Positions 56,174 through 62,979 of a DNA stretch of 64,000 nucleotides are shown here, piece after piece. The notes beneath the pieces were generated by a model. It searched no databases. It was given only the letters and a program-made list of their open reading frames with translations, and was not told the DNA's origin. The DNA is from Muriicola jejuensis (GTDB lineage Bacteria; Bacteroidota; Bacteroidia; Flavobacteriales; Flavobacteriaceae): positions 62,001 through 126,000 of the forward strand of contig NZ_JAABOP010000005.1 in the NCBI RefSeq assembly GCF_010671595.1, in the 5' to 3' direction. The translations under genes were made by a program, and so were the position numbers. Each line of letters opens with the position of its first letter. The stretch's first letter is position 1.

Positions 56174-58561
56174 TTAGGTAGTGATCTCCTCGTACACCCG
56201 ACGGTCTTTCTTGTCGCGGTTTTTATTTACCATAGTATCCTGTGCTTGCATAGCCTGCCACTGCATCTTCGCGCCGTAGCGCCTTACTTGGTTGCTTTGC
56301 GTAGGGTCCATGACCAGTAAGTAGATCCATTCATTTTCTAGCAGCGTTTTCAGATGGTCATTCCTATTGAGGATCTCCTCCACCCTGCTTTCCGGGGCCT
56401 GGATCAGGACCGACAGGCGGAGGGGCTGGTGGTACATCTCATCGTCTGTTTGTTTGACGGATTGAAGAGGAAGACCCATCTTCAGGTCGCCCCCGTTCCC
56501 CTGTACCACCCCGTAGCGGCCGGTGATGTTATGGGTGATCTTGGACCCTCCTCCGAATTTTTCATTGTCTACGGTGGAGAAGTAATAGTGGTTGTTGATC
56601 CACTGGGTCACTACCATGGGGCCCTGCATGATACCCTCCAGGGCTGCACCGGTAGGATCCAGCTTCCAGTCATAGGAGTGCAGGAAACAACGCCCGCCCA
56701 GGTTGCTGTCGGCAGTGAGGTGGCGCGGCCCCACCACAAATCCGGCGTTCTTGGCCAGACCCCATTCGGGTCGGGTTTCCGCCCAGTGTGTAGCATTGGT
56801 ATCCGCTTTGGTGATCCCACCTTTAAAGACCCCTAACCTGTCGAGAGTCGCTGTTTCCCTCGCCTTTTGAAGATCTGTCTTTAGCCTCCTGAGGGCATCC
56901 CTGTGAGATTCCGGTACATCGGCATCAAAGACGACGATCTCATCGGTAGTGGTGTTGTGCTCTGCCCCAATGAATACGGTGTTCTTCGGGATCTCGATAT
57001 GGTGTTCCCTGCTCAGGACCTCCCTCACTTCCGGCAGGTTGGCCAGTTTGGCCAGCATCCGGGCGTTATGCCTGCCCGGGCTCGCTGCACAGGCCCCACA
57101 GTCCAGGCTGGATCCATAAGGGTTGTTGGCCGTATGGCTGCCATGTCCTGCAAAGAGGACCAGGGGGGCAAATTTTCTCCATCCCAGGAGGTCGAAGGCA
57201 GATTTTACAATACCTACCTTTTCATTGAGGGAAATTCCGGTTTCGCAATCGTGATGTTGATGTATCTCAGGTTCACAAAAGCCCTCGTAGCTTTCCTGTT
57301 CATTGAACTTATTGCGTTTTACATAGCTGGGCGCCAGAGTCCGTCCCAGCATATAGAACCCGTAGAAGATCCCCGAACCCTCCACAAATCCAAAGGTGGA
57401 AGGGAGCATGTTCTTCATCCGCTTCAGGAAGTACGCCCAGAAATTAAGGACGGCGTTTTTGCGCTCCCAATCCTTTTTCTCTTTTCCTTTATCGGCCTGG
57501 GGCGATTCAGTTACCTGATACGCGGAATTCAGGATGGGCGGGCAGGATTTGCGGCTGAGGCCGTCATTGAGGTCCTCATAGTCCATGGCGATACCGAAGA
57601 ACCCGGCATAGCCGAAGGTCTCGTACTTCCCCTTGGATTCCACATGCCGGCGGATGAGTTCCGAACGGGTATCTATACAAAAGACGAGCTGGGCATCCGG
57701 GGTGTCTTTCCGCATGTCAGAATGGCCAACCGAGTCTTTTTTACTGACCAGTTCGTGCACCATCTTGTGCTGCCAGCTCTTTTCCCAGGCACGGAGCCAT
57801 ATCAGGCCGAGTTCTGTCACTTCCGCATTCGAGCCGATCTGATTTTCCGATGGCAATAATGGAAGTTCAAGTTGGCGTGCGAGTACAAGCCGCACTGCCA
57901 GATAATCTTCCAGGCTTATGGGATAGGCCTGCTGCCAGGAGGAGTTTGTTTCCGTCCTGTGTTTTATATATCCTACCCAACCCGGCAAGGCGCCGAAATG
58001 GTACTGGAAGATCCGGGTATACGCATCCTCTTCAACCCCGGTGAGAGCATATTCCAGGGCTTCTGAAGCCGATTTTGGAAGCGCCCTCTTTTCTATTTTG
58101 CCTACTTCCCCATCGTAATTCACCAGCGTCCTCCAGGCTCCGTAAAATCCTTGTTCCTTTCCGGGGATGTCCCATTCGGCCAGGCCTTCATCCATGAAGG
58201 CGGTCAGCCACTTTACAGTAATCCTGTCGAGTTCACCCACCTCATTCAACTTCTCTTCCTCCTTCACAGAGGCCATCAGCTGCAGGTAGTATTCGGGTGA
58301 TTTGTCATACCCCCCTTCGGCCAGCAACTGCAGGAGCTCTTCCTCCCCTATTTCCCTTGCTTCCCAAGCCTGTCGCAGCATGGATACATCCGGCAATACC
58401 CTGGCCTGCAAGAGTTCTTCAGCAGACTGTATTGCCTCCCTGAAGCTCATTTTCTCGAGCCCGGTAAGTGGGTTGGAGGTGACAAAGGAATACAGGGGCC
58501 AGGTCTTCCCGATGATTGCAGCAGCTTCTTCAACGGATCTTTTTATGGACTTTTGGCTCAT
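56174..58561 (-). CDS. dabA: Inorganic carbon transporter subunit DabA (DUF2309)
   Basis: The 795-aa protein has the carbonic-anhydrase-like zinc site of DabA: Cys295 and Asp297 in FCIDTRSE, His473 in GHGSHTANNP and Cys488 in LDCGAC. The 15-residue step from His to the second Cys matches characterised DabA. DabA with the membrane partner DabB is thought to hydrate CO2 in one direction, driven by an ion gradient, and so accumulate bicarbonate. In a heterotroph this feeds carboxylases such as PEP or acetyl-CoA carboxylase. It starts five bases after the dabB stop. Confidence 0.93.
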   Translation of the reverse strand: MSQKSIKRSVEEAAAIIGKTWPLYSFVTSNPLTGLEKMSFREAIQSAEELLQARVLPDVSMLRQAWEAREIGEEELLQLLAEGGYDKSPEYYLQLMASVKEEEKLNEVGELDRITVKWLTAFMDEGLAEWDIPGKEQGFYGAWRTLVNYDGEVGKIEKRALPKSASEALEYALTGVEEDAYTRIFQYHFGALPGWVGYIKHRTETNSSWQQAYPISLEDYLAVRLVLARQLELPLLPSENQIGSNAEVTELGLIWLRAWEKSWQHKMVHELVSKKDSVGHSDMRKDTPDAQLVFCIDTRSELIRRHVESKGKYETFGYAGFFGIAMDYEDLNDGLSRKSCPPILNSAYQVTESPQADKGKEKKDWERKNAVLNFWAYFLKRMKNMLPSTFGFVEGSGIFYGFYMLGRTLAPSYVKRNKFNEQESYEGFCEPEIHQHHDCETGISLNEKVGIVKSAFDLLGWRKFAPLVLFAGHGSHTANNPYGSSLDCGACAASPGRHNARMLAKLANLPEVREVLSREHHIEIPKNTVFIGAEHNTTTDEIVVFDADVPESHRDALRRLKTDLQKARETATLDRLGVFKGGITKADTNATHWAETRPEWGLAKNAGFVVGPRHLTADSNLGGRCFLHSYDWKLDPTGAALEGIMQGPMVVTQWINNHYYFSTVDNEKFGGGSKITHNITGRYGVVQGNGGDLKMGLPLQSVKQTDDEMYHQPLRLSVLIQAPESRVEEILNRNDHLKTLLENEWIYLLVMDPTQSNQVRRYGAKMQWQAMQAQDTMVNKNRDKKDRRVYEEITT

Positions 58562-58566
58562 TAGGT

Positions 58567-60036
58567 TTAGGATTTATAGGTTAAAATTGATTTTTTAAAC
58601 GGTTGAGACAGGTTGAGCAGTTTTACATACAACCAGGGTACCTGTCGGTAAATTCCCAATTTCATGATAAAAAACCCTATCAGGAATACGAGCCCGAAAC
58701 CGATCTCCAGTGCTGTTAATGGAGTGGGAACAGCCACCAGCGGCAGGTCAGACATCAGTTGGGTAACCCCGTTGTAGAGCAGGGCGTACAGCCCGATCCC
58801 AGATACAAACAGGATGGATGGTAGGAGGATCTTCTGCACCCCGGTTAAAATCTGTTGTTTCACGATGTTGTAAGTGATCTGACCTACGGCTATTGCCACG
58901 ATCAGGGTCAGGAAAATACTGCTGTCTGCCTGGGTGCCTTTTCCGGTGAGGAAGATAAAGAGACCGGCTCCAAGCGTCCCGAATATAAGGACCGCAATAG
59001 CCTGTATAGGTTTGATCCGGATATTTGGTGGAGATTGGGGAACGGAATAGGTAATTTCTTCCCCTGAGGACAGGAAGAGGTAGGCCTTGTAAAACCCGTG
59101 CAGGATGAGGTGGGCCACTGCGGCATTAAAGAAGCCAAGGCCACATTGCATGATCATAAAGCCCATCTGAGCGATGGTAGAACAGGCCAGTTTTTGTTTG
59201 ACGTTCACCTGTAGCAGCTTTGTGAACTGGGCGATGACTGCGGTCAGTCCACCGATCACAAAGAGCAGGTCGAGCGTATGAGAGGCGAAGATCAGGGTCG
59301 AAAAAAGGGCCAGCAGGATGCCTGATCCATTCACAAAGCCCGCGTGCATAAGGGCTGAAGCCGGTGTTGGAGCTGTCATGGAAGACAGCAGCCAGCGATG
59401 GAAGGGATAAATGGCCGATTGTATCATGGCCGCCACGATCACCAGGAGGCCTGATAGGACGAGGGTCCACATGGGCAAATCAACGAGTGCATTCATGAGC
59501 CCGCTTACGGTATTCTGACCGCTTTGATAAGCGAGCAGAGCGATCCCTAAACCGAGCAGGGCCGAACCCGACAGGAAGTAGCGCTGTGTAAATTTAAGGG
59601 CCTCCCTGGCTTCACCCCAGCTGCGGTTCACGCCAATGAGGCGGGCCATAAAAAGCCCCATGGCCGTCCAGCTCAGGACAAACACCAGGAGATGTTCCGA
59701 CAGAACCAGGGCGGTTACAGACAGGGTAAAGCCCAGACAAAGGAACATAAAGCGGTTGTGGTAGCGGAATCCTTTGAGATACCTTAGGCTGTACGTCCCT
59801 ACGATCGCGCTAAAAAATGCAACGGTAGCGCAGATCAGAGCAGTGAATCCATTGACCCGGAAAAGGGTATTGTAATTCCATTGAGGGGCCCCTGAGTAAA
59901 AGTACACCAGGCCAGCAAGGCTGCTCAAAAAAAATACCCAAAAGAAAGCGGTGATCCCTTTGGGTATGGCGGCAGAGTTTGTCTGACGCTGGATGCCGTC
60001 ACCGGCTAATCGTTCTTGATGTTTGAGTTTATTCAT
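58567..60036 (-). CDS. dabB: DabB, NADH-quinone oxidoreductase subunit L-like ion-conducting subunit
   Basis: The 489-aa membrane protein has about 13 hydrophobic segments of the proton-pumping NuoL/Mrp family. PFHRWLLSSMTAPTPASALMHAG is split across the conserved helix and lysine/histidine track, followed by KLACSTIAQMGFM. In this context it is the cation-coupled partner of DabA rather than part of complex I, since no other nuo gene is nearby. It is transcribed first in the operon, from a promoter region at 60123-60195. Confidence 0.92.
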   Translation of the reverse strand: MNKLKHQERLAGDGIQRQTNSAAIPKGITAFFWVFFLSSLAGLVYFYSGAPQWNYNTLFRVNGFTALICATVAFFSAIVGTYSLRYLKGFRYHNRFMFLCLGFTLSVTALVLSEHLLVFVLSWTAMGLFMARLIGVNRSWGEAREALKFTQRYFLSGSALLGLGIALLAYQSGQNTVSGLMNALVDLPMWTLVLSGLLVIVAAMIQSAIYPFHRWLLSSMTAPTPASALMHAGFVNGSGILLALFSTLIFASHTLDLLFVIGGLTAVIAQFTKLLQVNVKQKLACSTIAQMGFMIMQCGLGFFNAAVAHLILHGFYKAYLFLSSGEEITYSVPQSPPNIRIKPIQAIAVLIFGTLGAGLFIFLTGKGTQADSSIFLTLIVAIAVGQITYNIVKQQILTGVQKILLPSILFVSGIGLYALLYNGVTQLMSDLPLVAVPTPLTALEIGFGLVFLIGFFIMKLGIYRQVPWLYVKLLNLSQPFKKSILTYKS

Positions 60037-62244: not shown

Positions 62245-62548
62245 AGGATTAATTGCGTTGATCCTAAGAACCATCCCCTTTGCAAACCTGCCGGCAGGCA
62301 GGTACAAACTCGCCAAGGCCATGAGCACTGAGGTTTTCATTTTCTGCTCCTTCGCACAAGCAAGCTTGGAGTGAAGTTTCTTCTGAGGAATCGCAGGATT
62401 AACTACGTTGAGCCTTTGTGATCCCCTTTGCAAATACTAAACCTGCACCCTCTTCGGCGTGCTGTTTTTTATTCCTTCAAACCCTTACAAAAGCAAGCAT
62501 GGCTTGGAGTTTCTTCAGAGGGATCTCAGGATTAACTGCGTTGATCCT
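62245..62548. repeat. Dispersed copies of a palindromic repeat upstream of the tandem array
   Basis: The 21-mer at 62245-62265, 62395-62415 and 62528-62548 is the same near-palindrome, with the core GGATTAAC-TGC-GTTGATCC and small changes. The second and third copies share a longer upstream block (about 62358-62394 and 62491-62527) containing AAGCAAGC, TTGGAG and GTTTCTTC. A CCTGCCGGCAGGCAGGT palindrome sits at about 62288-62304. The region looks like decayed copies of a larger interspersed unit, with no credible gene in it. Confidence 0.7.
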
Positions 62549-62856
62549 GACAGCGCTCTCCCCCAGAGGCGGACAGGCGCGCTGAAAATCAAAAAAGTCG
62601 CACTGTACATTAGGGATTAACTGCGTTGATCCTGACAGCGCTCTCCCCCAGAGGCGGACAGGCGCGCTGAAAATCAAAAAAGCCGCACTGTACATTAGGG
62701 ATTAACTGCGTTGATCCTGACAGCGCTCTCCACCAAGGGCGGACAGGCGCGCTGAAAATCAAAAAAGCCGCACTGTACATTAGGGATTAACTGCGTTGAT
62801 CCTGACAGCGCTCTCCACCAAGGGCGGACAGGCGCGCTGAAAATCAAAAAAGCCGC
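62531..62856. repeat. 85-bp tandem repeat array, three full copies and one partial
   Basis: Copies start at 62531, 62616, 62701 and 62786 and are nearly identical; copies 1-2 have CCCCCAGAGG where copies 3-4 have CCACCAAGGG. Each holds the palindrome ATTAACTGCGTTGAT and a CAGCGC...GCGCTG pair able to form a hairpin. The last copy lacks its final ~14 bp. 85 is not a multiple of three, so the array is not coding. It lies directly downstream of tRNA-Arg and its terminator. Confidence 0.9.
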
Positions 62857-62861
62857 AAAAT

Positions 62862-62895
62862 AAAAAAGCAAGCTATTCATTTTGCTTGCTTTTTT
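62862..62895 (-). terminator. Terminator of tRNA-Arg (bidirectional shape)
   Basis: A perfect 12-bp stem (62862-62873 with 62884-62895) has a 10-nt loop. It contains a six-A and six-T flank, so it can work on either strand. It lies 10 bp beyond the 3' end of the minus-strand tRNA-Arg. Confidence 0.85.
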
Positions 62896-62905
62896 GATTT
62901 ATTCG

Positions 62906-62979
62906 TGATCGCGACAGGATTCGAACCTGTGACCGTCTGCTTAGAAGGCAGATGCTCTATCCAGCTGAGCTACGCGACC
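62906..62979 (-). tRNA. tRNA-Arg, anticodon TCT
   Basis: The 74-nt cloverleaf has an acceptor stem GGTCGCG/CGCGATC (one G-U pair), D-arm GCTC/GAGC, anticodon stem TCTGC/GCAGA with loop CTTCTAA (anticodon TCT at 62943-62945), T-arm ACAGG/CCTGT with TTCGAAT, and discriminator A. CCA is not encoded. Confidence 0.97.

Follow-up and report, generated by a model that had tools for sequence, protein, structure and literature searches.

What is the array of 85-bp repeats that lies directly 3' of a tRNA-Arg(TCT) gene in Muriicola jejuensis, and how did it come to be there? We analyzed a 64,000-nucleotide stretch of this genome (the window). An earlier note, made from the sequence alone, had described the array and suggested a remnant of repeated integration, a REP-like element, or a structured RNA.

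The array adjoining tRNA-Arg(TCT)

TRF detected a single array in the whole window (Table 1), with 98% matches and 0 indels, in agreement with the strict period and the three full copies plus one partial copy that had been described. The array touches the edge of a terminator-like inverted repeat (62857-62873/62884-62900) and so abuts the tRNA terminator, as had also been noted. Copies 1 and 2 differed at 1 of 85 bases and copies 3 and 4 at 0 of 74. Because these differences are small within pairs and amount to 3 to 4 bases between pairs, we regard the two subtypes as real, and the stepwise duplication deduced from them stands. The description of the array as noncoding also held: the largest ORFs across it encode 72 and 61 aa, no integrase gene was found in it, and a nuclease ORF was absent at the locus. 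Other than tRNA, nothing in the window reached the threshold of an Rfam search.

Table 1 Features at the tRNA-Arg(TCT) locus (window positions)
Feature	Position	Strand	Basis
tRNA-Arg(TCT), host gene	62905-62979	-	ARAGORN; Rfam tRNA, E 7.9e-14
Inverted-repeat/terminator-like block directly after tRNA-Arg(TCT)	62841-62900	-	RNA fold and inverted-repeat search
Tandem array, period 85 bp, 3.9 copies	62529-62857	-	TRF
Second hairpin, proximal unit	62806-62839	-	RNA fold
Split T-arm copy 1, closest to tRNA, GGATCAACGCAGTTAATCC in the tRNA's direction	62784-62802	-	Motif search and RNA fold
Split T-arm copy 2	62699-62717	-	Motif search
Split T-arm copy 3	62614-62632	-	Motif search
Split T-arm copy 4, final copy of the regular 85-bp array	62529-62547	-	TRF and motif search
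Degenerate split T-arm copy, 2 mismatches	62396-62414	-	Motif search
Degenerate split T-arm copy, 1 mismatch	62246-62264	-	Motif search

Folded as RNA in the tRNA's direction, the proximal unit was unusually stable (z, -4.6; 0 of 200 shuffles equally stable). This fold contained the two hairpins that had been claimed for each copy (the second hairpin and split T-arm copy 1 of Table 1), together with a 13-bp helix between 62888-62900 and 62841-62853, which are the arms of the block following the tRNA. Folded alone as + strand DNA, a single 85-base copy was unremarkable (z, -1.2; 29 of 200 shuffles equally stable).

The core of the repeat, GGATTAACTGCGTTGATCC on the + strand, had 6 matches near tRNA-Arg(TCT) at ≤3 mismatches, where 0.03 were expected. 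Two of these are degenerate copies, and the one at 62396-62414 belongs to a 61-nt repeat (62355-62415) that is 84% alike to 62488-62548. The earlier note, otherwise right in its description, had missed the copies at 62246 and 62396 and the T-arm nature of the core (see below).

In the M. jejuensis genome, the full 85-bp body occurred at this locus only. The core (≤3 mismatches) had 10 matches, all at two tRNA loci; the second cluster, of 4 copies, lies immediately 3' of tRNA-Ser(TGA) and is oriented relative to its tRNA as in the array, but the surrounding sequence is different. We therefore rejected a REP-like (REP/REPIN) origin, since all 10 matches lie at these two loci rather than being dispersed among intergenic regions. 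A unit unique to this place and absent from relatives had been named as evidence against a repeat family; instead, the core was found again at a second tRNA and in other members of the family. Elsewhere in the window, two neighboring minus-strand ORFs (795 and 489 aa; 56174-60036) presumably resemble the DabA/DabB inorganic-carbon uptake pair.

Distribution of the core across Flavobacteriaceae and the phylum

At ≤2 mismatches, the 19-mer matched 114 times in 49 of 199 Flavobacteriaceae genomes, compared with 3 matches in 3 of the same 199 genomes for a reversed control pattern. The stretch around every match was examined, which gave 70 motif loci after exclusion of L088, a repeat of L024. A tRNA lay within 600 nt at 45 of the 70 loci, and in all 45 the motif ran in the tRNA's direction, as at the window locus. 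It was positioned 3' of the nearest tRNA in 43 of these, and in the other two (L039 and L082) it was 3' of tRNA-Pro, just before the next tRNA. Distances between motif and tRNA ranged from 83 to 522 nt (most were 83 to 149 nt), and the host tRNAs were Arg, Ser, Pro, Tyr, Val, His, Met, and Ala. Array periods were locus specific (e.g., 97, 108, 117, and 135 bp).

The 25 loci with no tRNA within 600 nt were heterogeneous. One (L050; G107:C9) contains two tandem units with copies of the tmRNA 3' end and lies 3' of the tmRNA gene, and three (L054, L055, and L061) run off the contig on the tRNA side. Seven end in what by eye appears to be a truncated tRNA end (L027, L037, L060, L067, L069, L076, and L078, with L069 the least clear), and 14 are single 2-mismatch matches with no tRNA seen. 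Draft contigs end in or near arrays at several loci (L033/L054 in G013, L036/L055 in G181, and L060/L061 in G053), and copy numbers there are therefore lower bounds.

Across 296 genomes of the phylum, 7 genomes matched at ≤1 mismatch. Among the places examined outside the family, two in G358 and one in G245 adjoin tRNAs and one in G219 does not. When the window locus was compared with a phage collection, most of the 20 matches listed carried a tRNA-Arg annotation. A 74-nt stretch in another genome of the genus (L163; G199:C24:884-957) matched the window's terminator-like block at 96%, with no tRNA found there by ARAGORN; it is either a block away from a tRNA or an effect of draft assembly.

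The core as a split T arm

A modified copy of a tRNA T arm, with a palindrome interrupting its loop, makes up the core. In the orientation of the tRNA, the core consists of the T-stem 5' strand, (A)TC, the palindrome, AAT, and the T-stem 3' strand, with (A)TC and AAT as the two loop halves. The window repeats resemble the T arm of their host tRNA-Arg(TCT), GGTTCGAATCC. Of the tRNA end, the window copies retain just AATCC, followed by TG in 3 of 6; the acceptor copy is gone from these units, which contain no exact tRNA 3' end.

The bases flanking the core follow the local tRNA. Over the 45 loci with a nearby tRNA, the 3 bases to the left of the core matched the local T stem at 1.70 positions per locus, against 0.92 (SD, 0.10) for permuted tRNAs, and the 3 bases to the right matched at 1.66, against 1.00 (SD, 0.10). 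On neither side did any of 20,000 permutations reach the observed value; for L039 and L082, the comparison was with the closest tRNA (Arg) instead of the tRNA-Pro upstream. Matches at the next 7 acceptor bases over the same 45 loci were mildly above chance (2.35 versus 1.89 permuted; 111 of 20,000 permutations). In 9 of the 45 loci, one copy each (9 copies) matched the tRNA end at ≥8 of 10 bases, and 6 of these copies matched at 10 of 10. The repeat at L039 extends past the tRNA end into a further stretch, and at L071 both the tRNA end and the terminator are repeated.

Stem pairs were counted over 56 loci with 109 copies, excluding the 14 tRNA-less loci with single 2-mismatch matches; the SegB motif (see below) was counted over the same set. 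Pair 7-13 occurred as A-T, G-C, C-G, or T-A and was paired in 45 of 45 distinct 19-mers, and pair 2-18 was G-C or A-T in 44 of 45; as the 109 copies were picked with ≤3 mismatches, this selection favored pairing, although A/G at position 7 and C/T at position 13 were independently free in the pattern. Pair 5-15 was standard in the tRNA's direction in just 2 of 45 distinct 19-mers. Its usual bases are C and A, which we take as T-loop heritage. An RNA-only reading that started from the conserved T.G pair 5-15 on the + strand was dropped, since these positions, read in the tRNA's direction, hold the T-loop bases C and A. An integron attC site, considered because of AAC...GTT, was dropped once the arms were found to follow the local T stem.

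tRNA 3' flanks of the M. jejuensis genome

The M. jejuensis genome has 37 tRNA genes, and we read 34 of their 3' flanks. By eye, many of these shared one layout, namely, the tRNA, a terminator, an inverted second half, a TTTGCAG- or TTTTCA-like word, and a split T arm with its own palindrome. A loose split-T-arm pattern matched 18 of 37 3' flanks in the tRNA's direction, some of which share an array with a neighboring tRNA and a few of which (Cys and His) look like chance, and 0 of 37 on the opposite strand. The corresponding counts for the 5' flanks were 4 of 37 and 2 of 37, and 200 base shuffles gave a mean of 1.34 and a maximum of 6. At least 3 terminal base pairs were present in the inserted part of 12 of 22 distinct matched strings (5.5% for shuffled strings). 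Matches to tRNA ends in these flanks totaled 318, versus 292.5 (SD, 5.1) with permuted tRNAs (0 of 10,000), a score to which a tandem tRNA-Glu pair adds a few points and in which many single flanks are close to chance.

Short palindromes recurred as or near inserted hairpins at different tRNAs, namely, CCTGCCGGCAGGCAGG (in the window at 62287-62302) and CCCGATAGCTATCGGG with near forms (L113, L126, and L177). These may be small repeats in their own right.

GIY-YIG nuclease genes nested at tRNA genes

A longer unit in the array at L071 contains an 87-aa ORF that matched the Pfam GIY-YIG domain (4e-17); NCBIfam gave no name for this nuclease. All five small GIY-YIG ORFs of the M. jejuensis genome (frames of 79 to 107 aa) lie ≤0.5 kb from a tRNA; of its 4 longer GIY-YIG matches, the two that were checked had no tRNA nearby. 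In relatives, 15 of 30 GIY-YIG loci among the matches listed, which include two M. jejuensis places already counted (L100 and L122), lay no more than 1.5 kb from a tRNA or tmRNA. The expected share was about 3%, since about 2.9% of the M. jejuensis genome falls within this distance of a tRNA. Partial tRNA copies of ≥15 nt were present in 14 of the 19 GIY-YIG loci with a tRNA nearby (L093 and L094 among the 19 are one locus); examples of exact copies are Val 46-76 and Met 41-75. In the three clearest units, a tRNA arm is replaced by a palindrome at the far end: the anticodon arm for Met and Val and the D-arm region for Arg(CCT). Conversely, a GIY-YIG ORF was found within the 1.5 to 2 kb around 6 of the 70 motif loci, one of them a fragment and one broken, and the tandem at the single tRNA-Pro of L070 combines a GIY-YIG unit with a nuclease-less T-arm unit. 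In PHROG, 2 of 5 proteins matched, one an endonuclease (8e-5) and the other a homing endonuclease (7e-4).

A mirror-image type was also seen, in which GIY-YIG cassettes lie 5' of tRNAs together with 5' tRNA fragments such as Pro 1-27, Arg-CCT 1-22, and Arg-ACG 1-15 (L092, L093/L094, L113, L089, and L121). Pieces of tRNA-Pro are repeated at 97-bp steps at L092 and L101, and at L092 the anticodon arm is replaced by CCCGCAGGGCGGG. An Rfam search of 15 GIY-YIG loci without an ARAGORN tRNA returned one tRNA (L119) and one Flavo-1 RNA, the latter near a tRNA-less GIY-YIG gene (L109, 2657-2769).

A phage nuclease with this domain, SegB, is reported to cut inside tRNA genes, to co-localize with tRNAs in phages, and to be needed for a tRNA segment to be amplified in tandem (Chihara et al. 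2026, PMC13096335). Its reported preference for RAWTSGAAC (23 of 83 sites) is not absolute; substrates lacking the motif were also cut, less well (PMC13096335). RAWTSGAAC corresponds to the T arm on the opposite strand. It is present in 16 of the 37 intact M. jejuensis tRNAs, is lacking in exact form from 21, and occurs in 0 of the 109 split copies; the motif scored is that of SegB and may not be that of the cassette proteins. Motif-bearing tRNAs of the genome stand unprotected, so something else must explain how self-cutting is avoided. We extend the behavior of SegB to the chromosomal GIY-YIG proteins by inference.

Allelic states and turnover of the units

Within the genus of the window, the 3' flank of tRNA-Arg(TCT) varies by species. 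One genome (G182) has the same unit twice, another (G200) has a different palindrome, and two (G199 and G202) have a different unit body. Turnover of units, but no empty site, was seen at this flank in the genus. In G182, the split arm recurs at about 24-bp spacing past the regular units (L063), as if the hairpin alone had been copied.

A tRNA-Met(CAT) locus in another genus showed a wider range of states in the 10 of 23 genomes that were read, which were chosen by their matches. The partial tRNA copy was absent in 2 of the 10 (G502 and G508); these empty alleles have the tRNA and a like terminator in common with the filled ones. One nuclease-less unit was present in G505 and G506 and two in G512 and G516; one GIY-YIG unit was present in G510 and G518 and two in G010; and G523 carries both kinds. 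The same downstream gene is kept within about 2 kb of tRNA-Met in five filled alleles (G010, G523, G505, G506, and G512), the only ones in which downstream synteny was seen. The order of the terminators is swapped between two alleles: G505 has one kind after the tRNA and the other beyond the tRNA-end copy, and G506 has the reverse. The units therefore seem to bring their own terminators, and the varied states suggest that they behave as inserts that leave the tRNA whole.

Origin of the array

We consider it about evenly balanced whether the window array is, mechanism included, a tandemly amplified, nuclease-less insert nested at a tRNA gene, with the anatomy of the E. coli rtT repeats and movement through a GIY-YIG nuclease. 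The parts of this reading differ in strength. Support for the split-T-arm anatomy is good, the reading of the array as an insert draws on other loci of the same kind, and a GIY-YIG mechanism for these units is likely by analogy with SegB. Each unit would have been inserted as a small segment at a tRNA gene's 3' end, supplying a replacement tRNA end (T-loop half, acceptor strand, and terminator) and leaving, on its far side, a T arm whose loop is interrupted by a palindrome. The window array would be a nuclease-less unit that was amplified in tandem and whose tRNA-end copies were worn down to the T stem. A SegB-type GIY-YIG nuclease, supplied in cis or in trans, would cut tRNA genes in the T arm or the anticodon arm, repair after the cut would copy or amplify the unit, and the palindrome would remove the preferred site from the copy. 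Points against this mechanism are that the window locus has no nuclease ORF, that just 6 of 70 motif loci have one nearby, and that none is annotated in the 1.5 kb viewed at E. coli tyrV. Of the three suggestions in the earlier note, a remnant of repeated integration thus came closest: the units are nested at tRNAs and occur with copies of tRNA 3' ends. They do not appear to be remnants of large integrative elements, as each unit of about 85 to 180 bp seems to be the insert itself.

An origin of the units from tyrosine-recombinase integrative elements, as minimal or decayed products in which the tRNA was restored, an attR containing the 3' end left behind, and most of the element lost, is unlikely in our judgment. 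Such integration typically leaves a partial tRNA copy next to an intact tRNA (PMC9897764), and the seven motif loci with apparent truncated tRNA ends (by eye) look like element junctions. Yet units of 85 to 180 bp are too small for an integrase, fixed-length tandem units recur at many loci, and the same tRNA-Met is filled by either GIY-YIG or nuclease-less units. Nor would an attR be expected to contain a palindrome that splits the T loop and that is constant across tRNA types within a set and different between sets. Plain slippage or unequal recombination of tRNA-end sequence, with neither a mobile nor a selected role, would account for the stepwise duplication recorded in the two subtypes; we regard it as very unlikely, since it would not make the same T-loop split at many tRNAs in 49 genomes or swap terminators between alleles.

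A selected RNA or DNA device, either an rtT-like tRNA trailer RNA or a terminator/insulator that acts both ways and whose T-arm mimic is bound by enzymes of tRNA maturation, is an unlikely alternative that draws on several of the observations above: the high stability of the proximal unit when folded in the tRNA's direction (z, -4.6), the like architecture with unlike sequences at many tRNAs of the genome, the occurrence of stem pair 7-13 as all four pairs, paired in 45 of 45 distinct 19-mers, and the annotation of the E. coli unit as the RNA rttR. The earlier suggestion of a structured RNA is compatible with that fold and with the rttR annotation of rtT, the system closest in anatomy. The fast turnover between congeners and the roughly half of the genome's own tRNA flanks that are without the pattern argue against a selected device, and pair 5-15, standard in just 2 of 45, is more simply leftover T-loop bases. 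The terminator-like block, moreover, precedes the split arm, so that the arm may be little transcribed.

If the insert reading is right, tRNA genes serve as homing sites for very small elements, with the tRNA kept whole. Such elements would also explain the strong differences in tRNA 3' flanks between related species and the draft contigs that end inside arrays. A wider proposal, which we put forward tentatively as possible but doubtful, is that tRNA-nested mobile units with and without a GIY-YIG nuclease form one class that spreads into tRNA and tmRNA genes of Bacteroidota and other groups, that a T-arm-reading nuclease moves the nuclease-less ones in trans and amplifies them, and that rtT is a relic of the same process. 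This would join three things, E. coli rtT, phage SegB, and the small chromosomal GIY-YIG genes of Flavobacteriaceae and relatives, and would give rtT a testable origin in T-arm cleavage followed by amplification. In the open-licence PubMed Central literature, we found neither a description of such repeats nor one of tRNA-nested chromosomal GIY-YIG genes, and no link among the three.

Comparison with known systems

The closest counterpart in anatomy is rtT, the repeats 3' of tyrT and tyrV in E. coli (rttR/tpr), which is released as RNA and whose unit is annotated as the small RNA rttR. At tyrV of E. coli K-12, the one rtT locus examined, tRNA nt 67-85 occur in 3 exact copies at 178-nt steps. 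Part of the T stem (nt 59-67 or 59-66) stands ahead of each copy, followed by an imperfect hairpin of about 67 nt, and the T loop is therefore split. Folded as DNA, the rtT palindrome was mildly better than shuffles (z, -1.9; 12 of 200 equally stable). The annotation of the 1.5 kb viewed at tyrV contains no GIY-YIG gene. Like the window array, rtT consists of tandem units directly 3' of a tRNA gene; as in the window and family units, a hairpin interrupts the T loop, and the T-stem strands on either side of it correspond to those of the local tRNA. The rtT units differ in being longer, with a much longer palindrome, and in carrying an exact tRNA 3' end in each unit, whereas the window units have only AATCC and other family loci have exact copies. 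Because it lacks an exact tRNA-end copy and an Rfam match, we do not file the array as a member of rtT, alike as the anatomy is.

In fungal mitochondria, homing elements that duplicate gene ends consist of a nuclease insert with a replacement gene end, and double-hairpin elements are mobile hairpins. Both differ from the units described here in the type of genome and in the genes concerned.

With attR scars, the units share the partial tRNA copy beside an intact gene (PMC9897764). They differ in their size of 85 to 180 bp, which leaves no room for an integrase, and in the palindrome in the T loop.

SegB, a freestanding homing endonuclease of T-even phages, resembles the cassette proteins in its GIY-YIG domain and its link to tRNA genes. 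SegB amplifies whole tRNA segments, whereas the cassette proteins are short and chromosomal; the connection between them is by domain (the Pfam and PHROG matches above), and T-loop-split copies were not seen in the available portion of the SegB account (PMC13096335). The array itself contains no nuclease gene, and we therefore do not class it among homing elements; in trans, it may still function as one.
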